Shown: in pieces, positions 8,151 through 51,224 of the stretch
Layout: each line of letters opens with the position of its first letter
How positions within the stretch are numbered: position 1 is the first letter of the stretch
NCBI GenBank assembly: GCA_947503715.1
Contig: CANNER010000003.1
Span: forward strand, 124,001-188,000
Length of the DNA: 64,000 nt
Direction: 5' to 3'
Source of the DNA: an uncultured Caulobacterales bacterium
GTDB lineage: Bacteria > Pseudomonadota > Alphaproteobacteria > Caulobacterales > Maricaulaceae
Notes under the pieces: generated by a model
Databases searched by the model: none
Told to the model about the DNA's origin: nothing
What the model saw: only the letters and a program-made list of their open reading frames with translations
Position numbers and translations under genes: made by a program

Positions 8151-9482
8151 ATGACTCGCACCACTTTCACGCCGCGCACGGCTATGGCCATCATCATTGC
8201 AAACATGGTTGGCGTGGGCGTCTTCACGGCGCTTGGCTATCAACTCGCGGACATTGACAGTCTGTTTGCCATCATCATGCTCTGGGTGATTGGCGGTTTG
8301 GCCGCTCTGTGCGGCGCACTCTCATATGCCGAACTGGGCGCGTCCCTGCCGCGCTCCGGCGGGGAATATACGTTTCTGGGCGAGGCTTATCATCCCGCGG
8401 CCGGGTTCATTTCCGGCTGGGTGAGTGCCACGATTGGCTTTGCCGCCCCAACCGCCGTCGTCGCGATTGCCTTTGCCGATTATACGGGCGCGATTTTGCC
8501 GGGCGGCGTGTCGCCCCTGATGCAGAAGATTATTGCCGTCGCGCTCGTCGTCATTCTTGCCGCCCTCCACGCCCGGTCGCGGCATGTGTCCGGCGCGACG
8601 CAGACGATATTTACAGCCGTGAAAATCGCGCTCATCACCGCCTTTATTCTCGCGGCCTTCCTTCTGACCGCAGAGCCGCAGGTCCTGGACCTCGCGCCCA
8701 AAGCGTCCGACCCCGGCGTCATGATGAGCGTCCCCTACGGCATCGCGCTGATCTATGTCTCCTACGCCTATACGGGGTGGAACGCGGCGACCTATGTGTC
8801 GGGCGAGATGTCTAACCCGCAAAAGGACCTGCCGCGCGTTCTGTTCCTCGGCACGGCGCTCGTGACCGTGCTCTACGTCCTCATCAATCTCGCCTTTCTC
8901 TATGCGGCCCCTGTCGAGGCGATGCAGGGCAAGGTCGAGATTGGCTATATCGCGGCGGAAGGCATTTTCGGCGAGACGGGCGGACGGCTGGTTGGCGGAA
9001 TGTTGGCACTGCTCCTCATCTCGACGGTCAGTGCCATGACCCTCGCTGGACCTCGCGCGCTGCAAGCGATTGGCGAGGACTATCACGCCATGCGCTGGCT
9101 CTCGAAAAGCACGGCGGAGGGCGTGCCCTGGCTGGCCATTTGTTTTCAGTCGGGGATCGCCATTTTCTTTATCCTGAGTTCGACCTTTGACGAGATCCTC
9201 GTCTTTGCGGGATCGATGCTGGCCTTTAACAGCCTGCTGGCCATTGTCGGCCTGTTCGTATTGCGGTGGCGTCAACCGGATCTGCCGCGTCCTTACAAGA
9301 CGTGGGGTTATCCGATTGTTCCGTTGATCTACCTGACGATTACGGCGGTCACCTTGGTCTTTGTGATACTGGACCGCCCGAAAGCCGCGCTAGGGGGATT
9401 GGCCCTTATCGCCGTCGGATTTCTCTTTTGGTTCTTAACCCGAAATCTGGGGCATAACAGGCGGAACCCACGGCACGACTAG
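8151..9482 (+). CDS. APC-family amino acid permease
   Basis: Inner-membrane amino acid/polyamine transporter of the APC superfamily, 443 residues with about 12 hydrophobic segments. TM1 carries the unwound-helix motif IIANMVGVGVFTALG, the substrate-binding GxGxF/T region. The LSYAELGASLPRSGGEYTFL stretch is typical of APC cytoplasmic loop 1. Substrate cannot be told. It runs opposite to all neighbours. Its 3' end overlaps the 3' end of lolD by 48 bases, and it uses GC-rich codons more heavily than dnaE or lolC. It interrupts the otherwise co-directional dnaE-lolD-lolC-proS block, which suggests an insertion. No clear ribosome site precedes the ATG. Confidence 0.87.
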   Translation: MTRTTFTPRTAMAIIIANMVGVGVFTALGYQLADIDSLFAIIMLWVIGGLAALCGALSYAELGASLPRSGGEYTFLGEAYHPAAGFISGWVSATIGFAAPTAVVAIAFADYTGAILPGGVSPLMQKIIAVALVVILAALHARSRHVSGATQTIFTAVKIALITAFILAAFLLTAEPQVLDLAPKASDPGVMMSVPYGIALIYVSYAYTGWNAATYVSGEMSNPQKDLPRVLFLGTALVTVLYVLINLAFLYAAPVEAMQGKVEIGYIAAEGIFGETGGRLVGGMLALLLISTVSAMTLAGPRALQAIGEDYHAMRWLSKSTAEGVPWLAICFQSGIAIFFILSSTFDEILVFAGSMLAFNSLLAIVGLFVLRWRQPDLPRPYKTWGYPIVPLIYLTITAVTLVFVILDRPKAALGGLALIAVGFLFWFLTRNLGHNRRNPRHD

Positions 9483-10145
9483 GCCGTCCTGTACCGTTAG
9501 GACGCGGTCAAAGAACGGGACGAGGTTCATATTATGCGTCGCGATCAGGGCGGCGACACCCTCTTGACGGGTCAGGTCGAACAGGCTGCGGAACACACGG
9601 TCCGATGTCGCGGGGTCGAGGTTCCCTGTCGGTTCATCCCCCAGCAGCATTTGCGGACGATTGGCGAGCGCGCGGGCAATGGCCACGCGTTGCTGCTCGC
9701 CACCGGACATCTCGCTGGGGCGATGGGTCAGGCGTCCGCCAAGGCCCATCCCCGTTAGCAGTCGCGCCGCTTCCGCTTCGGCCTTTTTCGCGGCCACGCC
9801 GGAGATCATTTGCGGGATGGCGACATTTTCCAGCGCGGTGAATTCCTTCTGCAGGTGATGGAATTGATAGACGACGCCGACACTCTCACGCCGGATGCGC
9901 GTGCGCTGATCATCGGGCAGTTTCAGGCACTCACGGCCATTGATATAGACTTCGCCCGCATTCGGTTTTTCGAGCAAGCCCGCAGCATGGAGCAGTGTCG
10001 ACTTCCCTGAGCCAGAAGGCCCGACAAGGCCGACCATTTCGCCGGGATAAATGTCAATATCCGCCCCCGCCATAACGGTCAGGGTTCCCCCACCCGACGG
10101 GTAGGAGCGGTGCAGATTGCGAACGGAGAGAATAGGACGCGCCAT
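9435..10145 (-). CDS. lolD: Lipoprotein-releasing ABC transporter ATPase LolD
   Basis: ATPase that powers release of outer-membrane lipoproteins from the inner membrane to LolA. Seen: Walker [10 protein letters not shown] (residue about 40), a Q loop, the signature [15 protein letters not shown], Walker [13 protein letters not shown] and the switch histidine in ATHN. The 236 residues are slightly longer than usual; the tail [13 protein letters not shown] lies in the stretch overlapping the convergent permease. The start directly abuts the lolC stop (shared base 10145), indicating translational coupling. Confidence 0.93.
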
Positions 10146-35947: not shown

Positions 35948-38050
35948 TTAACTGTCCACCTGCGGTTTGCGGAAGATCAGGCGTAGCATAAAAGCCAAAA
36001 TTGCCAATAAAAGGATTGAAATAGCGCCTTTAAGAGATTGCGGGATTTCCCAGTCACCACTGATTGATGCATTATCAGCGTTGGGGTTCAAACTTGTATA
36101 AACCGTCATACCCATCCGGTCGCGGGCCTTATTGATCGCGGCCATATCTGTTTTGACATCGGCGAGATTGATGTGATCTTTTTTGGTGCGGTAACTATAG
36201 GTTTCCCGGTAAATCGTATTCCCGTCTTTATTCCACTCATTCAGTTCAAGATAGGAAAAGGCCTCTCCCTCAAACTCATATTTATCATCATCAAAATCAT
36301 AGTCATCATTGGCAAGATATTCGACCGTATGACGAGTTCTTACGGGATATTCGAGGGCGAAATCAGTGACCCGGTCTGCCCCGTTAAATTTAGGAAAATC
36401 GGCTCTAAGCTCATAGGGTGATGCGCGAAATGTCTTCCGGTTCTCTTCCGCATTTTCGGTCCAGGCTTCGGGAATTTTGAAACCTGTTTTCAGGGTCGCA
36501 ATCGCCTTTTCCTCGTCCGTGATCAACTGCATCTCCTCGGCCACTTCAATGGTCGGGTAAATATCGCGGTAATAATCAAGCAGCGCCTTCTCAACTGCAG
36601 CCATACCGTCACCATTGACCCAATCCACGGTACTATCGGCCTGTTCGCCAACATATTTCAGAACATTTGTGAAGGTGATGGTGTCAGGATCAGAAATCAG
36701 ATCAAAACTATCGGTAAAATCTTTCGTCCACTCCGGCAGACTGTCCGGCAGGTCAATCACCGCTGAATTATCCTCACGCAGGAGAAGTCCTCTTCCGTAT
36801 GCATCCTGCGCATAATGGTCGATATCGCCCAATTGTGGTGAGCGTGTTGGGTCCATGACATAGAATTGATCCGCAATATTTGCCAAAACCACAACGTGAT
36901 CAAACGCGGCATGATTGGGAAGCGCATCAAAAACACCCCCCAATTCATCTGTAGACACAAGCATAGGGTCTGCAGAAACCCCAAGTTCCTGAAGGAGTGA
37001 GAGGAGTAAAAGCGTGACGTCCTTACAGTCTCCAAATTTTCTGTCTAACACCAGATCAGGCGCACGCGGTTTGTAACCGCTCTGCCCCATCTCTAACCCC
37101 AAATATCGAATATTGCGTTGGACATAATCCAGCGCCGCACGGGCTTGTGCGCCCGCATCCGCTGTCTCGGCCCGAATATCGGCGGCAATTCTTTTGATCT
37201 CATCCGATTGACTGCGGATGTAATAGGGCGCAAAAACATTGCCGACATCAGACCAGTTATCATAGCTGGAGATTTCTTGAATGGGATAACTATAGCTCCA
37301 CTTGGGAACATCGTCATCTGCAACAAAAGCAGGCACATCATCGCGAATATAGCTGACAATCGTGACGCCATTATCTTGCCGGGTGATCCGTGGCTCAACC
37401 GCGCCTAGATGCAATTTCGTATAGACAGGCAGCCCATCCTCCACCCGTAATATTGAATGAATACGTTGTTCGGGTGACGCATATTCTTGGATTTGACTTT
37501 GAAAAAACCCCTCCCCCAAGCCCGGGTTTTTACCTGACACCGTGTAAGAATAATCCAACTTATCCCCGGCCCGAAGATCGGTTAAACTCAAACTCAATGT
37601 CAGACGACCATTATAAATGAGTTTATCTCTATCCGTCTCAGTCCGAAAAATTTCGAAATCATCAAAATCAAGACGATCACTCACGATACCATCGCGCACA
37701 ACGTGGATATGGTGGAAAATTATGGATTGATAGCCCGGATCGAAACCGATTGAAATGGTCCCATTATCCTCAACCGCCCCCGTCGTCAGCAGGTCCATAA
37801 TAAAGTGACGATACCTCTCCTGCTCCGTCTTTCCAACGCGCTTCTGAAAGCTCGTCAGGCGGTAAGCAATTTTCAAACGGGAGGCCGCCTCGAATTCACC
37901 GGGTGGACTGTCTTGAAGTTCCACCCAATCTGGCGGCGGCGCAATTTTGGCATGATCCGTTACGGACTGCGCTTGGCCTATGTTTGCAGATAATATGCAA
38001 AATAAAAATAACGCCAAATAGATGACGCCGCGTTTCAGTCCCTGTCCCAT
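35948..38050 (-). CDS. DUF3857 and transglutaminase-like domain protein
   Basis: The 700 residues have a signal peptide (YLALFLFCILSANIGQAQS). A DUF3857 beta domain spans about 60-230. A transglutaminase-like domain carries the triad Cys in KFGDCKDVT, His in NHAAFDHVVV and Asp in VMDPTRSP. A C-terminal beta region ends in one membrane helix (GAISILLLAILAFML) with a short basic tail. It is periplasmic and anchored at its C-terminus. The substrate is unknown. It stands alone. Confidence 0.85.
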   Translation of the reverse strand: MGQGLKRGVIYLALFLFCILSANIGQAQSVTDHAKIAPPPDWVELQDSPPGEFEAASRLKIAYRLTSFQKRVGKTEQERYRHFIMDLLTTGAVEDNGTISIGFDPGYQSIIFHHIHVVRDGIVSDRLDFDDFEIFRTETDRDKLIYNGRLTLSLSLTDLRAGDKLDYSYTVSGKNPGLGEGFFQSQIQEYASPEQRIHSILRVEDGLPVYTKLHLGAVEPRITRQDNGVTIVSYIRDDVPAFVADDDVPKWSYSYPIQEISSYDNWSDVGNVFAPYYIRSQSDEIKRIAADIRAETADAGAQARAALDYVQRNIRYLGLEMGQSGYKPRAPDLVLDRKFGDCKDVTLLLLSLLQELGVSADPMLVSTDELGGVFDALPNHAAFDHVVVLANIADQFYVMDPTRSPQLGDIDHYAQDAYGRGLLLREDNSAVIDLPDSLPEWTKDFTDSFDLISDPDTITFTNVLKYVGEQADSTVDWVNGDGMAAVEKALLDYYRDIYPTIEVAEEMQLITDEEKAIATLKTGFKIPEAWTENAEENRKTFRASPYELRADFPKFNGADRVTDFALEYPVRTRHTVEYLANDDYDFDDDKYEFEGEAFSYLELNEWNKDGNTIYRETYSYRTKKDHINLADVKTDMAAINKARDRMGMTVYTSLNPNADNASISGDWEIPQSLKGAISILLLAILAFMLRLIFRKPQVDS

Positions 38051-38142
38051 AAACAGGGTTTAAACGGATAGACGAAGACGACAAGCTTGGAACCTGTAAA
38101 AATAAGGGTGTATTTCTAGCTATCTCGGGTTAGCTGTACCAC

Positions 38143-38799
38143 ATGTCCGAAATCAAAAACCTGACCCTTCATCATTATCCCCTTTCCCGTTCCGCGCGGG
38201 TGAAATGGCTCTTGCATGAAATGCGGGGCGAAGATTTCGATGTTCATCGCGTAGCCCTGCGGCAGGGGGGACAATATACGTCGGAATATCTGGCGAAGAA
38301 CCCGAACCACGCCGTGCCTGTCCTCGAAGTGACCTATGCCGATGGATCAGAACAGGTCATTTTCGAATCCATGGCAATCCTGACTTGGCTGGCAGATTTG
38401 GACGACAGATTTGCGCCGAAACCAAGCGATCTGAAAGCCCGTGCAGACTATCTGCAAATCTTGGCACTGGGCGGATCGTGGATGGACCAGATGCTTTGGA
38501 ATATCCGCCTGCATGAAAACATCCTACCCAAAGCCGCCCGTAATGCGGCCTTCGCGCAATTCAATCGGGATAAAATCGAGAATGAAATCACGCCGCAACT
38601 CGTCGCACGTCTTTCTGAGAATGCGTTTATTTGCGGCGAGACATTTACCGCCGCAGATTGCCTGACGGGGCAGAATTTGAATTGGGCGCGGGCTTATGGT
38701 CTCTGCGCCAATCCCGTCTTGAAAGACTATATGAAACGCATGAAATCGCGCCCCGCCTTCCAACTGGCATTCGCTGACGCAAAGGATTTTGAAGGATGA
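38143..38799 (+). CDS. Glutathione S-transferase family protein
   Basis: The 218 residues have an N-terminal thioredoxin fold (HYPLSRSARVKWLLHE, NPNHAVPVLEV, FESMAILTWLAD) and a helical C-terminal domain. The serine/tyrosine region SRSAR points to a Beta/Zeta-like class. It is the first gene of a four-gene operon; its stop overlaps the next start (ATGA). No strong ribosome site is visible. Confidence 0.85.
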   Translation: MSEIKNLTLHHYPLSRSARVKWLLHEMRGEDFDVHRVALRQGGQYTSEYLAKNPNHAVPVLEVTYADGSEQVIFESMAILTWLADLDDRFAPKPSDLKARADYLQILALGGSWMDQMLWNIRLHENILPKAARNAAFAQFNRDKIENEITPQLVARLSENAFICGETFTAADCLTGQNLNWARAYGLCANPVLKDYMKRMKSRPAFQLAFADAKDFEG

Positions 38800-39662
38800 A
38801 GCTGGGACAGACGGATATCACCATTGGCAAGATTGCCTTCGGCTGTTGGCGTTTTGCCGAACATGATGTGAAGACCGCGGACGGCCTCATCAGGGCGGCG
38901 CTGGATAATGGCATGACCCTCATCGACACGGCTGATATTTACGGCTTTGGTGAACCGCGCGGCTTTGGCGGAGCGGAAGAATTGCTGGGCGAAGTCTTGT
39001 CGGCGTCACCAAAACTACGAGGGCAAATGGTCCTCACGACGAAGGGCGGTATTGACGCCGTTCGACCCTATGACAGTTCCTATCGCTATATCATGGACGC
39101 GATGGACGCGTCGCTGACGCGTTTGAAAACGGATTTTGTCGACCTCTACCAAATCCATCGTCCCGACCTGTCCACACCCTTTGCGGAAACTGCGCGGGCC
39201 TTGAACGAAATCGTCGCCTCGGGCAAGGCGCGGTCCATCGGGGTGTCCAACTTTACCGTCGCCCAGACCCGCGCCCTCCAAGCCCATCTGGAAACGCCCA
39301 TCGCGACATTGCAGCCCGAATTTTCGGCCCTGCAACAGGACCCGATCACGGACGGGACATTGGATTACGCAATGGAAACGGGCGCGACTGTGCTGGGCTG
39401 GTCCCCGCTTGGGGGCGGAAAAATTCCGACCGAAGAGGGCCCCGTCCAAACGGCACTCGATAAAATCGCCACCGCCTACGGCGTCTCGCGCAGCGTCACC
39501 GCCCTCGCCTTTACCCGTGCACATGGCGCAAATGTCGTTCCCATTATCGGCACGCAAAAAGTCGAACGCATCGCGGAGTCCGCCTATGCCGCGCAGATCA
39601 ATCTAATGGGCCGCGAATTTTACGATGTGATTGAGGCCTATCGCGGCGAAGGCATGCCCTGA
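38796..39662 (+). CDS. Aldo/keto reductase
   Basis: The 288-residue (alpha/beta)8 NADPH enzyme has the catalytic Tyr in DTADIYGFGEP, Lys in LTTKGGID and His in LYQIHRPD, and the NADP region IIGTQKVERI. It resembles the YdhF/oxidoreductase branch. The substrate is unknown. Start and stop overlap both neighbours, indicating translational coupling. Confidence 0.88.
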   Translation: MKLGQTDITIGKIAFGCWRFAEHDVKTADGLIRAALDNGMTLIDTADIYGFGEPRGFGGAEELLGEVLSASPKLRGQMVLTTKGGIDAVRPYDSSYRYIMDAMDASLTRLKTDFVDLYQIHRPDLSTPFAETARALNEIVASGKARSIGVSNFTVAQTRALQAHLETPIATLQPEFSALQQDPITDGTLDYAMETGATVLGWSPLGGGKIPTEEGPVQTALDKIATAYGVSRSVTALAFTRAHGANVVPIIGTQKVERIAESAYAAQINLMGREFYDVIEAYRGEGMP

Positions 39663-40708
39663 TGACAACTTACGCCATTATCGGCGCCGGCATGATGGGA
39701 CGGGAACATATCGCCAATCTGGCGCTCGTGCCCTGTGCGGAACTCATCGCCCTCGCAGATCCAGATGCAGGCTCCCGCAAATGGTCGGGTCATGACGCCG
39801 GAGAAGACGTTCAAGTCTTTGAGGATTACATGACAATGATGCGCGAGGTTCAGCCCGACGCCGTCATCATCGCCGCGCCGAACTTCCGCCACTTTGAGAT
39901 CATCAATGACATCGCGGAATTCGGGGCCGCCCTTCTAATTGAAAAACCACTGGCGACGACGGTTGAGGATGCGCAACAGCTCGCCGCTCTCGCAGACACC
40001 TACCCCAACCTGTTCTGGGTGGGCCTCGAATATCGTTATATGCCGCCTATCACGGCTTTTATTGAGCAAGTTCATTCAGGTCTCACAGGACCGGTAAAAA
40101 TGCTGACCTTTCGCGAACATCGTTTTCCGTTCTTGCCAAAGGTCGGGAATTGGAACCGATTTTCGGAAAATACGGGCGGAACATTGGTTGAGAAATGTTG
40201 TCACTTTTTCGACCTTATGCGTGTGATTTTACAGAGTGACCCGATCCGCGTTTATGCGAGTGGCGGGATGGATGTGAACCATCTGGACGAGCGCTATGAG
40301 GGACGGAGACCAGATATTCTCGACAATGCCTATGTTATGCTAGATTTTGAAAACGGGGCGCGGGCAGTCCTCGAACTCTGCATGTTTGCAAACTTAACCC
40401 ATCAGGAAGAACGGTTACATGTCGTTGGACCGGAAGGACGACTGTCTGTCTCCATTCCGGAAGCCATATTGGAGTGGTCTCCTCTTCGCGGTGAAGGGTA
40501 TTCGCGTGAAATTGAAACGCCCGCAGAAGCCCTCTCTGCAGGCGATCATCACGGCGCGACCTATTTCCAATTACTGGATTTCCACCGCGCTTTGACTGAA
40601 AAAGGCAAAGCAACGGTCACGGCAGAAGACGGACTCTGGTCGGTCAAAATCGGCGGCGCCGCGCATCAATCAATTGAAACGGGATTGCCCGTCCATATAG
40701 GCGAATGA
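39662..40708 (+). CDS. Gfo/Idh/MocA family oxidoreductase
   Basis: The 348 residues open with a Rossmann fold (IIGAGMMGREHIANL), then the EKPLATT motif with the conserved Lys and a C-terminal alpha/beta domain containing GTLVEKCCHFFDLMR. It probably oxidises a sugar or cyclitol hydroxyl. The start overlaps the previous TGA by one base (TGATG), and its end overlaps the TauD gene (ATGA). Confidence 0.9.
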   Translation: MTTYAIIGAGMMGREHIANLALVPCAELIALADPDAGSRKWSGHDAGEDVQVFEDYMTMMREVQPDAVIIAAPNFRHFEIINDIAEFGAALLIEKPLATTVEDAQQLAALADTYPNLFWVGLEYRYMPPITAFIEQVHSGLTGPVKMLTFREHRFPFLPKVGNWNRFSENTGGTLVEKCCHFFDLMRVILQSDPIRVYASGGMDVNHLDERYEGRRPDILDNAYVMLDFENGARAVLELCMFANLTHQEERLHVVGPEGRLSVSIPEAILEWSPLRGEGYSREIETPAEALSAGDHHGATYFQLLDFHRALTEKGKATVTAEDGLWSVKIGGAAHQSIETGLPVHIGE

Positions 40709-41643
40709 GATTGGATATGACGCAAACTTATAACGGGATCGACTTTCCCCGTATCATTCATGGCAAGGGTGATCTTTCAAAATGGATTGCGACGCATAAG
40801 GCAGAGGTAGACACTAGACTCGCCGAGACCGGAACCGTTCTCTTTCGCGGCTTTAATATCACCTCCCCCGAAGATTTTCATGACGCTGTGGAAGGTTACG
40901 GCGAACTTGGTTTCACTTATGCGGACAGCCTGTCCAATGCCGTTCGGGTGAACCTGACATCCCGCGTTTTCACCGCCAATGAAGCCCCAGCGGATGTGTC
41001 CATCTATCTCCATCACGAAATGGCGCAGACGCCTTATTATCCCGGCAAGCTGTTCTTTTCCTGCATGATTGCGCCGGAAACGGGCGGCGCCACACCGATT
41101 TGTCGCTCTGATATTGTATTTGAGCAGCTCACAAAAGCCGAGCCAGACCTCGTCGCCGCGCTACGCTTACAGGGTGTGCGCTATAGCAACACGATGCCGG
41201 CGACAGATGATCCAAATTCCGGACAGGGCCGCTCTTGGCGCTCGACGCTTAGCCGGGATACGAAAGCCGCCGCCGAAGCACGATTGGATGAATTGGGATA
41301 TAACTATGTCTGGAATGCGGATGAAACACTCCGCGTCACGAGTCCGGCTCTGCCCGCCATTCGCGAATTACCGGACGGGTCAGAGAGTTTCTTCAATCAA
41401 TTAATTGCGGCATTTCGCGGGTGGAAAGACAGTCGAAATGACCCGTCAAAATCCGTGACGCTGGGCAATGGTGATCCATTGGATATTCGCGCGCTTCAAA
41501 CCGCGATCCGTATCGCCGATGAGGTCAGCTATGACCTAAACTGGCAAGCGGGCGATGTCGCCCTGCTGGATAATTACCGCGTCATGCACGGTCGCCGTCC
41601 CTTTACGGGGAAACGGCGGGTTCTAGCCGCGCTGGTAGCTTAA
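40705..41643 (+). CDS. TauD/TfdA family Fe(II)/2-oxoglutarate dioxygenase
   Basis: The 312 residues carry the facial triad: His and acidic residue in YLHHEMAQT and the distal His in DNYRVMHGRRPF, followed by the 2-oxoglutarate-binding Arg (RRPFTGKRR). It is closest to the SyrP/clavaminate-like branch by the LFRGF and GGATPICRS segments. Last gene of the operon. Its stop overlaps the convergent outer-membrane gene by 4 bases. ATGs at 40705 and 40717 are both possible; the former is coupled by overlap. Confidence 0.88.
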   Translation: MRLDMTQTYNGIDFPRIIHGKGDLSKWIATHKAEVDTRLAETGTVLFRGFNITSPEDFHDAVEGYGELGFTYADSLSNAVRVNLTSRVFTANEAPADVSIYLHHEMAQTPYYPGKLFFSCMIAPETGGATPICRSDIVFEQLTKAEPDLVAALRLQGVRYSNTMPATDDPNSGQGRSWRSTLSRDTKAAAEARLDELGYNYVWNADETLRVTSPALPAIRELPDGSESFFNQLIAAFRGWKDSRNDPSKSVTLGNGDPLDIRALQTAIRIADEVSYDLNWQAGDVALLDNYRVMHGRRPFTGKRRVLAALVA

Positions 41644-42344
41644 AAACGGCGGGTCAGACCAACTGTGACGACTGGATAATAGCGGTAATCCTCGGCGTCA
41701 TCTTCAATGGCACTCACCTCTGCATCCAATTCAGCACGAAGGCGTGGATCACTTGAAAGCGTACCATTCGCTGAGACGAGTTCTGCTTTCGGGGCGCCTG
41801 TAAACATAATGCCTGCACGCGCATTAAAGGACCAATTTGTGGAGCTTGAGATAAAGCTGTCATACCCAATACCGGCATAGGGCGCGAAGTTGCGAAGCTC
41901 TGCCTGTCCGTTCAAAGTGCCGACCTCTTCGGGTGTGAATAAAGTGTCGCCAATTTCAACATTGGTTGTCGGCGTTGCATCCAAGTTCAGTGTCTTGTCA
42001 CCGATATAAGCCCCACCGGAAACGATGAAACCGTTATGAAAGGGCGCAATATCAACAAATCCCGCAACTGTGTTCGCTTTGAAATCGCCATCATAATCAA
42101 TGTCATCGAATTCTTCGTCCATGGAGAAATCGAGATAGTTATAGCTGCCGCGTAACATAACGGTCTCGGACGGTGCATATTTGGCCTCGACCGTTGCGCC
42201 CGTTGTGCCGACACCCAGCCCAACCCCGAATTTGCCGGGATTATTATAGGCCGGTGCTTGATAGGATTGATAACCCTGATGGGATGAACAGGCTGTAATA
42301 GCAGCGGCACAAACGCTCAGCACGATAAGTTTTTTAAACGTCAT
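41640..42344 (-). CDS. Outer-membrane beta-barrel lipoprotein
   Basis: The 234 residues start with a lipobox (VCAAAITAC). A Tyr/Gln/Pro linker follows, then amphipathic strands (KFGVGLGVGTTGATVEAKY, VMLRGSYNYLDF, FAPYAGIGYDSF) and a C-terminal TVGLTRRF with terminal Phe. This suggests a small barrel with a lipidated N-terminus, an uncommon combination. Function unknown. Confidence 0.7.
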   Translation of the reverse strand: MTFKKLIVLSVCAAAITACSSHQGYQSYQAPAYNNPGKFGVGLGVGTTGATVEAKYAPSETVMLRGSYNYLDFSMDEEFDDIDYDGDFKANTVAGFVDIAPFHNGFIVSGGAYIGDKTLNLDATPTTNVEIGDTLFTPEEVGTLNGQAELRNFAPYAGIGYDSFISSSTNWSFNARAGIMFTGAPKAELVSANGTLSSDPRLRAELDAEVSAIEDDAEDYRYYPVVTVGLTRRF

Positions 42345-42434: not shown

Positions 42435-43283
42435 CTAAAGCAGGCCATCAAAATCGGACGCATCATGGCGCTCTTTCAGGCCTTTATCGTCCCAATAGCG
42501 ATTGACGAGCTGTCCCCGCCGGAAGGCAGGACGTGCCGCGAGTTGTTTGGTCCAGCGCTGTAAATGCTTATAACTCTGAACCTGCAAAAACTCGCCGCCC
42601 TCATAGAGGAGCCCGCGCGCCATCGCGCCGTACCATGGGTAAATCGCCATATCTGCGATCGTCAGCTCATCGCCGACGATAAATTCTGACTGCGCCAAAC
42701 GTTGGTCCAGCACGTCCAGTTGACGTTTCGTCTCCATTGAAAAACGGTCGATGCAATATTGGATTTTCATCGGGGCATAGGCGTAGAAATGGCCGAATCC
42801 GCCACCGAGATAAGGGGCGGAGCCGACTTGCCAGAACAGCCAGGACAGACACTCTGTGCGCGCCTGCCCGTCCTCCGGCAGGAACATACCGAATTTTTCG
42901 GCGAGGTGCATGAGAATAGAACCGGATTCGAAAATACGGCGCGGTTCATCGCCGGAGCGGTCCATCATGGCAGGAATTTTTGAATTCGGGTTCACGTCAA
43001 CAAAGCCCGATCCGAACTGGTCGCCCTCGCCGATATTTATCAGCCAAGCGTCATATTCCGCGTCCTCCACGCCAGCGGCCAAAAGTTCTTCCAGCATGAT
43101 CGTGACTTTGACGCCATTAGGCGTGCCCAGGGAGTAAAGTTGGAACGGGTGCTTCCCAACAGGCAGCTCTTTCTCATGCGTTTTTCCCGCCGTTGGGCGG
43201 TTAATATTTGCAAATTTCCCGCCCGATGACGTGTTTTCCCAGACCTTTGGCGGGGTCCAGTCGGATAATGTTTGGTCGCTCAT
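42435..43283 (-). CDS. yghU: Glutathione-dependent disulfide-bond oxidoreductase (YghU-like)
   Basis: The 282-residue GST-fold protein has the Nu-class features: an N-terminal extension (WTPPKVWENTS), LYSLGTPNGVKVTIMLEE with the Thr-Pro-Asn active site, NPNSKIPAMMD and FESGSILMHLAEKFG. It reduces disulfides or peroxides using glutathione. The start at 43283 has GGAG directly upstream; 43295 is an alternative. Confidence 0.9.
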   Translation of the reverse strand: MSDQTLSDWTPPKVWENTSSGGKFANINRPTAGKTHEKELPVGKHPFQLYSLGTPNGVKVTIMLEELLAAGVEDAEYDAWLINIGEGDQFGSGFVDVNPNSKIPAMMDRSGDEPRRIFESGSILMHLAEKFGMFLPEDGQARTECLSWLFWQVGSAPYLGGGFGHFYAYAPMKIQYCIDRFSMETKRQLDVLDQRLAQSEFIVGDELTIADMAIYPWYGAMARGLLYEGGEFLQVQSYKHLQRWTKQLAARPAFRRGQLVNRYWDDKGLKERHDASDFDGLL

Positions 43284-43352
43284 CTCTCTCTCCATAATTT
43301 GAGAGAGGATTAGAGGAATGGAAGCCGCAGGGGAAGTGACGGGTTTGTGAAC

Positions 43353-49303: not shown

Positions 49304-50155
49304 TTAAGCGCGATCAAGTTCCAGCAGTTTCTCCACAGGAAGCATGTGAGGAATGATGAAGGCGACGCCCAAGCCTGCCGCCAGATAAATCGGTACATAT
49401 CCGGCTTGCACGGCCCAGATGATAATGCCTGCCCCAATCAGGGCGGGAATTGAAGCGGGTGCGTAAAGTTTCGAAATTGATTTGAGGTCCAGATAACCTT
49501 GATGCCGGGACAGGCCTTCCAACGTTTTGCGCATTTCGCACAAGCTGTGAAAGCAGAAGAAGTAGAGCGCAACGGCTGTCACGGGCGGCAGAAAAATAAA
49601 AATCGTCAGTAATGCTATCACACGAAACAGGTCGACAGATTGCCGCCGCAACAATCGAATAGCCGTTTCGCCTAAAACGATAAGAGCACAGATAATCGAA
49701 AAGTAACGACCTGTCTCCACAGCCAGCGCAACGCTCAGGTCGGACCGGGTGAGGAATGAAAATATCTCCAATGTCTCTACTGGGTAATTTAGAAAAGACC
49801 CGAGTGTAACCCAAGCCCCAAGCGAGAGAGTATGCGGTTCAGACAGACCAAAATGAATTGCGGATAATGTCAGGAAGACAACCAAGGTTCCAACGGGCGA
49901 AATCAGCCAACTGGAATAGACCAGAATACCAAAAACAATATATAAGGCGGTATAGGCCAAGGTTGGCATCATAACACGACGTTGATGGGGGAGGCGTTCA
50001 ACCGCGCCGTGCGGGACACCCAAGATAAAAAAGAAGATCGCGAGCCAGAAGGCTGCGACTGGCGAAACGGATTGAACCGCATAAAACCCCAGAGCGGATA
50101 GACATGTAAAAGCAATCCAAACGGACCGCTTGGAAAGTGATGCGGGCCAAGACAT
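49304..50155 (-). CDS. blh: Beta-carotene 15,15'-dioxygenase Blh
   Basis: Cleaves beta-carotene to retinal, the rhodopsin chromophore. The 283 residues have about eight membrane helices. The histidines expected for the iron site of Brp/Blh are in GVPHGAVE, SAIHFGLSE, FCFHSLCEM and IIPHMLPVE. The ATG at 50155 (MSWPASL) was chosen because the open frame upstream runs through the terminator after the rhodopsin gene. The ribosome site is weak. Same strand and directly downstream of the rhodopsin. Confidence 0.92.
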   Translation of the reverse strand: MSWPASLSKRSVWIAFTCLSALGFYAVQSVSPVAAFWLAIFFFILGVPHGAVERLPHQRRVMMPTLAYTALYIVFGILVYSSWLISPVGTLVVFLTLSAIHFGLSEPHTLSLGAWVTLGSFLNYPVETLEIFSFLTRSDLSVALAVETGRYFSIICALIVLGETAIRLLRRQSVDLFRVIALLTIFIFLPPVTAVALYFFCFHSLCEMRKTLEGLSRHQGYLDLKSISKLYAPASIPALIGAGIIIWAVQAGYVPIYLAAGLGVAFIIPHMLPVEKLLELDRA

Positions 50156-50206
50156 AGGTTTCTGGTAAGTTGTTACCGATTGAAAAGCGATGTCTTTCCC
50201 TTTCAC

Positions 50207-50234
50207 AAAAAGGCGACCCCACACTGGGATCGCC
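50207..50234 (-). terminator. Terminator/attenuator between rhodopsin and blh
   Basis: On the minus strand GGCGATCCCA, loop GTG and TGGGGTCGCC form a 10-bp stem with one G-U pair, followed by five T. It lies 22 bases after the rhodopsin stop and 52 before the blh start. It should cut most rhodopsin transcripts before blh. Confidence 0.85.
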
Positions 50235-50255: not shown

Positions 50256-50978
50256 TTACTTCATTGACGCTGGTTCAGCATGGTTCTCTGATGTCGCTGC
50301 TGCCCAGATCACAACACCGAATGCGATTTTGTTCACAAAATCAGCGAGGTTGTAGACGAGGTTCAGGATGGCATCATTCGCACCCGGCTCACCGATATAG
50401 CCAACGATGTAACCAATTGGGTAAATCGCCCAGCCAACAGTCACGATCCAACGCAAGGCATTAAACGCTTTCTTGGATGCGACGGTACCAAACTCATTGC
50501 TGAGCTTGCTGGCTTCACCCGCAAAGATTTCATAGATGATGTATAACCACGCGAGCGTACCCACGATAAACATCGGCCATAATAGCGAGCCTTGATAGAC
50601 TTCGCCCAGATAACCCGTGATCAACATTACCAATGATGCAATCAACAGTTTCCAGAACAGGCTCGTCCGGACGAGTGTGATTGCGGATAGAATCAAGAAG
50701 AACTCAACAATCTGCAATGGCACTGTGAGTAGCCAGTCCACATAGCGGAAGACCGTTGGGCTCTCGCCCGTCATCGCCCACACGCCGCGCATGTAGAAAT
50801 AATGCAGGGCAGCAATACCCGTTACCATTGCTGCGACGGTTAGGGATGTTTTCCACTTCCCAACCGCACGGTCACGTTCGACCCAGAAAAAGAACGTCGC
50901 AGCCAGCATAGCGGCTGAGATGATCCAAAAAGAGACTCCGACAAGATCTGTCGGGTCCAACATACCTGTTTTTTCCAT
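50256..50978 (-). CDS. Proteorhodopsin, blue-absorbing type proton pump
   Basis: Light-driven outward proton pump in the inner membrane, 240 residues, seven helices. In RYVDWLLTVPLQIVEF the proton acceptor is Asp81, with Thr85 and Glu92 (DTE motif of proton pumps, numbered 97, 101 and 108 in the reference protein). The tuning position is Gln89 (reference 105), which marks the blue form. His59 (HYFYMRGVW) pairs with the acceptor, and Lys217 (NLADFVNKI) binds retinal. The start at 50978 has GGAGG; there is no signal peptide, unlike the reference protein. Divergent from purA. Confidence 0.95.
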   Translation of the reverse strand: MEKTGMLDPTDLVGVSFWIISAAMLAATFFFWVERDRAVGKWKTSLTVAAMVTGIAALHYFYMRGVWAMTGESPTVFRYVDWLLTVPLQIVEFFLILSAITLVRTSLFWKLLIASLVMLITGYLGEVYQGSLLWPMFIVGTLAWLYIIYEIFAGEASKLSNEFGTVASKKAFNALRWIVTVGWAIYPIGYIVGYIGEPGANDAILNLVYNLADFVNKIAFGVVIWAAATSENHAEPASMK

Positions 50979-51224
50979 ATTTCCCTCCAAAGGTGGATTC
51001 CCAACAATATAGTTGGTTATGAAAACGTTACGGATTGGAAAGGCGGTTTGGTTTGTGATTTTGTTAACCTGCGTCAATTCGGAACAATTTGGATTAAGTC
51101 CAGAATTGGCACCATACCTGCGAAGAAACTGATTTTCGGCAACAAATAAGTTTTCGGGGTATAAATCGCGCCTGCATCTGGAAACCTGCCCTCGGTTCAG
51201 TTATGCGCTAAACGAAGTCATCCT

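Follow-up and report, generated by a model that had tools for sequence, protein, structure and literature searches.

Sulfoquinovose (SQ), a sulfur-containing sugar, is abundant in the membranes of plants and algae. According to excerpts of two reports, the dioxygenase SqoD frees sulfite from SQ to give 6-dehydroglucose, which an oxidoreductase converts to glucose, and this route, known as sulfo-ASDO or sulfo-SDO, is assigned there to the Gammaproteobacteria (PMC12890257, PMC13372026). Furthermore, GH188 genes have been reported in sulfo-SDO clusters, in the part of that study drawn on here (Kaur et al., PMC10755693). In this work we describe a four-gene operon at positions 38143-41643 of a 64,000-nucleotide stretch of DNA from an uncultured alphaproteobacterium of the Caulobacterales (assembly GCA_947503715.1, contig CANNER010000003.1, positions 124,001 to 188,000), which is referred to below, at its whole length, as the window. 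The operon is predicted, with high confidence, to degrade SQ by the sulfo-SDO/sulfo-ASDO route, and is most likely a new carrier of an already described pathway and not a new pathway. In the initial annotation the set of genes was said to match no known pathway, and this has to be revised, as all but one of the genes can be placed in the published one; its suggestion that the operon could degrade one small molecule is supported.

The locus resembles the sulfo-SDO/sulfo-ASDO system of Marinobacterium aestuarii (SqoD with SquF), as far as the published excerpts describe it, in that a dioxygenase and an NAD(P)H oxidoreductase are encoded together, with GH188 present as in sulfo-SDO clusters. However, it differs in its alphaproteobacterial host, in its SmoB-type reductase, in its leading gene for a glutathione S-transferase (GST) family protein, and in having no linked transporter. 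In the excerpt available, sulfo-SDO clusters were recognized by an SQ dioxygenase and an oxidoreductase lying within 10 open reading frames (ORFs) of each other, each identified by BLAST to reference enzymes (PMC13372026); in the window the corresponding proteins are encoded in adjacent genes (38796-41643) and correspond at the level of protein family. With the sulfo-SMO/sulfo-ASMO route (SmoC/SquD with SmoB/SquF) the operon is predicted to share its net chemistry and, by likeness, its type of reductase, whereas the congeneric genomes G001, G009 and G014 have that route in place of the dioxygenase. No SmoC-like monooxygenase was found in the window's own genome at E 1e-30.

The third gene encodes a Gfo/Idh protein that was at first taken for a dehydrogenase of the sugar or cyclitol type. 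Over its full length it matches two solved SqgA enzymes (8qc2, E 6e-101; 8qc3, E 4e-99), namely FlSqgA and ArSqgA, which the consulted part of their description presents as NAD+-dependent sulfoquinovosidases of family GH188 (Kaur et al., PMC10755693). An inositol or other sugar dehydrogenase was rejected as a far weaker match, the best annotated inositol dehydrogenase being 4hkt (E 1e-17). In the same part of that study, the residues of ArSqgA that contact SQ are K107, Y136, R166, the backbone of L170, K172, E189, H193 and H321 (PMC10755693). When mapped by eye from the alignment and the published spacing, all eight are kept in the window protein, as K95, Y124, R154, L158, K160, E177, H181 and H296, and these positions are invariant across nine aligned rows, its own included. 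Between the H181 and H296 positions the protein is 13 residues shorter than the solved enzyme in the alignment. Thus, on the strength of the SqgA match and the contact residues, it is a predicted GH188 sulfoquinovosidase, better read as a glycosidase with NAD+ as catalytic cofactor than as a dehydrogenase.

The fourth gene encodes a TauD-family protein in which H103, E105, H295 and R304 are invariant in 33 rows; we take these to be the metal triad (His-x-Asp/Glu...His) and the distal Arg of the Fe(II)/2-oxoglutarate dioxygenases. Its predicted model (mean predicted local distance difference test score, pLDDT, 90.2) has as best structure match 1y0z, At3g21360 of Arabidopsis, with Z 40.8 and 40% identity, far ahead of E. 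coli TauD at Z 20.5. The structure 9yut, which ranked second among the sequence matches, was not among the listed structure matches of the model. VioC, GntD and trimethyllysine dioxygenase gave weak partial matches and were set aside. Among plasmid records no closer named SqoD was found; 100 matched, all below 60% identity, and the 15 listed lay at 31-34%. We infer from family membership and gene context that the protein is a candidate counterpart of SqoD. No solved structure of named source is closer than At3g21360, and GH188 occurs in plants, according to the excerpt seen (Kaur et al., PMC10755693); plants may therefore hold a related GH188/dioxygenase pair. A literature search turned up one paper that mentions both At3g21360 and sulfoquinovose.

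Substrates within the TauD family are diverse, and the lower structure matches of the model include taurine dioxygenase and alkylsulfatases (AtsK) at Z ~20. This would suit an enzyme that desulfonates or desulfates some other substrate (a different sulfonated sugar, a sulfonate resembling taurine, or a sulfate ester) beside an incidental GH188 gene. We consider such an activity very improbable, since the top structure match scores far higher than either TauD or AtsK and since the linkage to GH188 is so regular. A scan of genome contigs with a six-sequence alignment confirmed 522 TauD relatives, and in the best 80 of these loci we counted, by tblastn and with kinship ignored, the genes within 5 kb of the TauD gene. 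GH188 was present in 76 of the 80, in Alpha- and Gammaproteobacteria as well as in a planctomycete record; it was missing from L081 and L100, where the TauD gene lies near the start of the contig, and from L129 and L134. An aldo/keto reductase was found in 69 loci (61 of a second type, eight of the window's type, none with both), and a sodium:solute symporter in 49; one symporter and one second-type reductase were checked by Pfam. In the planctomycete records L129 and L134 a reductase adjoins TauD, and L129 has another Gfo/Idh-like ORF upstream.

The hosts of these best 80 loci include Erythrobacter, Sphingorhabdus, Hellea, Henriciella, Litorimonas, several Gammaproteobacteria and the planctomycete records. 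The clusters of the Erythrobacter and Sphingorhabdus relatives run GH188-reductase-TauD-symporter, with GH188 and TauD mostly 55-65% identical to those of the window, but the reductase between them, of ~318 aa, is of the other type and the symporter is usually linked. These findings indicate a wide distribution of the dioxygenase route among the Alphaproteobacteria, which includes Erythrobacter, Sphingorhabdus, Hellea and Litorimonas, among others. A literature search, which most subscription journals lay outside, found nothing linking Litorimonas to sulfoquinovose and nothing joining Erythrobacter with the names of the dioxygenase pathway.

The aldo/keto reductase of the window has as its best sequence match the Agrobacterium enzyme of 7bby/7bbz (E 1e-42), and its model, of middling confidence (mean pLDDT 80.0), matches 7bc1, a complex with NADPH and glucose, at Z 32.1 and 35% identity, tied with 7twz and 1og6. 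We take the Agrobacterium protein of these three entries (7bby, 7bbz and 7bc1) to be SmoB. Residues D44, Y49, K83 and H121, presumably the catalytic Asp, Tyr, Lys and His of aldo/keto reductases, are invariant in eight rows. In a set of 60 related genomes, own genome included, for which the association tests ignore kinship and the identity cut-offs were placed at the gap in each match list, the reductase occurs at >=46% identity in 23. It is present in 12 of the 14 genomes with an SqoD-type or SmoC-like enzyme, against 11 of the 46 without (Fisher p 5e-5); in the two exceptions, G001 and G014, a SmoB-like reductase of more distant relationship lies next to the SmoC-like gene.

Taken together, these assignments suggest the following scheme. 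A marine alphaproteobacterium, of the genus of Litorimonas cladophorae, would take up SQ glycosides, such as sulfoquinovosyl glycerol from algal sulfolipid, and use them as a carbon source. The GH188 enzyme would oxidize C3 of the glycoside transiently with NAD+ and in this way cleave it, releasing SQ. The TauD enzyme, with Fe(II), O2 and 2-oxoglutarate, would then add a hydroxyl group at C6, adjacent to the sulfonate, which leads to cleavage of the C-S bond and yields 6-dehydroglucose and sulfite. Finally, the aldo/keto reductase would use NAD(P)H to convert 6-dehydroglucose to glucose, which would enter central metabolism. The GST, presumably co-transcribed, would be a passenger or an accessory.

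Several points weigh against this scheme. The likeness to the characterised SqoD of M. aestuarii is deduced from family and gene context, and a full-length TauD relative is present in only six of the 60 genomes, own included. No transporter for SQ or its glycosides is linked to the operon, and the only relative of the symporter in the own genome (37%) sits beside galactose/galactoside-like genes; it was rejected as an SQ importer, its neighbours reading as alpha-galactosidase, GalT and GalK in translations read by eye. The reductase, moreover, occurs in the 11 genomes mentioned above that have no SQ desulfonating enzyme, and it survives in G008 after deletion of GH188 and TauD; it is therefore not restricted to the SQ pathway.

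The history of the site bears on the last of these points. GST and reductase are still adjacent in seven genomes (G002, G007, G008, G009, G010, G011 and G018) whose site lacks full-length GH188 and TauD, and of these G018 is 100% complete. A second GST gene lies on the far side of the reductase in all seven, as does serC where the stretch reaches. In G008 (L035, ~9466-9668), directly behind the intact reductase, there are ~25 codons that match the beginning of GH188, with a stop codon, and after these ~29 codons that match the end of TauD; their alignment scores against locus L055 are 60 and 63, compared with shuffle maxima of 38 and 32 (500 shuffles each). This remnant is a deletion scar, in which the SQ-specific half of the operon was lost and the GST-reductase half kept. 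As GST and reductase are retained without GH188 and TauD, both must have a use apart from the SQ pathway, at least in those relatives. More broadly, the presence of SqoD requires three changes on each of the trees built (flanking GST2, reductase and GST), and its clustering hardly exceeds that of shuffled labels; we take this as patchy loss or gain, in which loss is shown only for G008, by its scar.

Both the 100% complete G018 and the scar in G008 would be expected if GH188 and TauD act on SQ while reductase and GST form a separate and older module, for example in aldehyde detoxification, that shares their transcript, with some other enzyme reducing 6-dehydroglucose. We think this explanation unlikely. 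The reductase is present in all six of the SqoD-type genomes among the 60. Where it is linked to TauD, in eight of the 80 loci (kinship again ignored), it never stands alongside the other type, and because the two TauD-linked types never co-occur in one locus, they appear to fill a single slot, which suggests that this slot can be held by either of two aldo/keto reductase types. Furthermore, a 49% identical relative in G045 lies ~9 bases from a SmoC-like monooxygenase gene and next to GH188. In G009 (65% complete) a SmoC-like gene and GH188 stand together with no reductase gene in the stretch read, and reductase and GST lie elsewhere; the reductase could serve that locus in trans.

The SmoC-like monooxygenase is found in eight of the 60 genomes, and never co-occurs with the SqoD-type enzyme of the other six. 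At L049, L050, L051 and L052, from the same genus or family, GH188 stands beside a SmoC-like monooxygenase of the luciferase family and not a dioxygenase.

The GST probably serves some general function, as an older companion of the reductase, and is not a dedicated step. At >=49% identity it occurs in 15 of the 60 genomes, and 12 of these 15 also have the reductase (p 2e-4). A working part in the pathway, for instance handling sulfite or the reactive 6-aldehyde with glutathione, would be in keeping with its place at the head of the operon in three genomes of the genus, with a 51% identical relative that stands next to TauD in convergent orientation in L060 and a GST in L061 (both Robiginitomaculum metagenome-assembled genomes), and with its association with SqoD among the 60 genomes (Fisher p 0.03, uncorrected). 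We doubt this, however, as a GST is near TauD in only four of the 80 loci and, when all desulfonating enzymes are considered, it is present in six of the 14 genomes that have one and in nine of the 46 that do not (p 0.08). In addition, Hellea balneolensis (G028) carries reductase, GH188 and TauD at the same site, beside the second GST and serC, but without the operon GST. A further variant would be a glutathione-assisted form of the SQ dioxygenase route, in which the genes for GST and SmoB-type reductase are a conserved pair, acting on reactive sugar aldehydes by means of glutathione, that GH188 and TauD have joined, the GST dealing with 6-dehydroglucose or sulfite; it seems to us decidedly improbable.

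As to the architecture of the operon, its four genes are co-directional on the + strand and overlap successively by 4, 1 and 4 bases; the ORF listing and an inspection of the junction bases bear out the coordinates and the overlaps of 1-4 bases given in the initial annotation, and Pfam agrees with its four family names (GST, Aldo_ket_red, GFO_IDH_MocA and TauD). With NCBIfam, none of the four proteins received a specific assignment, as no model reached the cut-off curated for it. The identical gene set and order recur in two congeneric genomes, G005 and G013, the latter judged to be L. cladophorae KCTC 23968 (locus L055), each protein with 75-79% identity, and the arrangement is therefore not due to chance. 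The overlaps are not kept across the genus, small gaps separating the genes of G013. In the initial annotation, a lack of neighbouring positions in any other genome was to count as refutation, and this is not what was seen: GH188 and TauD are neighbours at 76 of the 80 fetched loci, whereas the exact four-gene order was found only in this genus (three of the 60 genomes, and two of the 80 TauD loci, both among those three genomes). The features are listed in Table 1.

Table 1. Coordinates of the predicted operon and its upstream region within the window.
Feature	Position	Strand	Basis
Intergenic stretch between divergent genes, presumed operon promoter region	38051..38142	.	Sole gap between 35948-38050 (-) and GST start
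GST-family protein, 218 aa	38143..38799	+	Pfam GST_N/GST_C; nearest solved relatives YfcG-type, E 6e-13
SmoB-type aldo/keto reductase, candidate 6-dehydroglucose reductase, 288 aa	38796..39662	+	Pfam Aldo_ket_red, 2e-54
GH188 NAD+-dependent sulfoquinovosidase (SqgA), predicted, 348 aa	39662..40708	+	Pfam GFO_IDH_MocA and C-terminal domain; 8qc2/8qc3 matches
TauD-family Fe(II)/2-oxoglutarate dioxygenase, candidate sulfoquinovose dioxygenase SqoD, 312 aa	40705..41643	+	Pfam TauD, 2.2e-32

No sigma-70-like promoter was found on the + strand upstream of the operon; the whole stretch held two sites, both on the - strand, against 2.9 expected by chance. At the other end, the TauD gene overlaps a convergent neighbour, 41640-42344 (-), by 4 bases. 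Beyond this, a second GST-family protein is encoded at 42435-43295 (-), and it stays beside the operon site with or without GH188 and TauD.

With these results, a set of genes whose annotation was vague becomes a testable route by which a marine lineage would use one of the most abundant organosulfur compounds. Of interest are the spread of the dioxygenase route in the Alphaproteobacteria, the use of an alternative reductase in the same slot, and a GST-reductase pair that can be separated from the rest. The results also suggest that GH188 and TauD, the SQ-specific half, are lost or retained independently of the other two genes.

Elsewhere in the window, a bacteriorhodopsin-like protein (50256-51077, -; PF01036, 6e-48) adjoins a beta-carotene 15,15'-dioxygenase (49304-50224, -; PF15461, 9e-27), and the two are probably a proteorhodopsin and its retinal-making enzyme. 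The bacteriorhodopsin-like protein contains the motif LLTVPLQ, whose Gln we take to be the blue-tuning position of proteorhodopsin.

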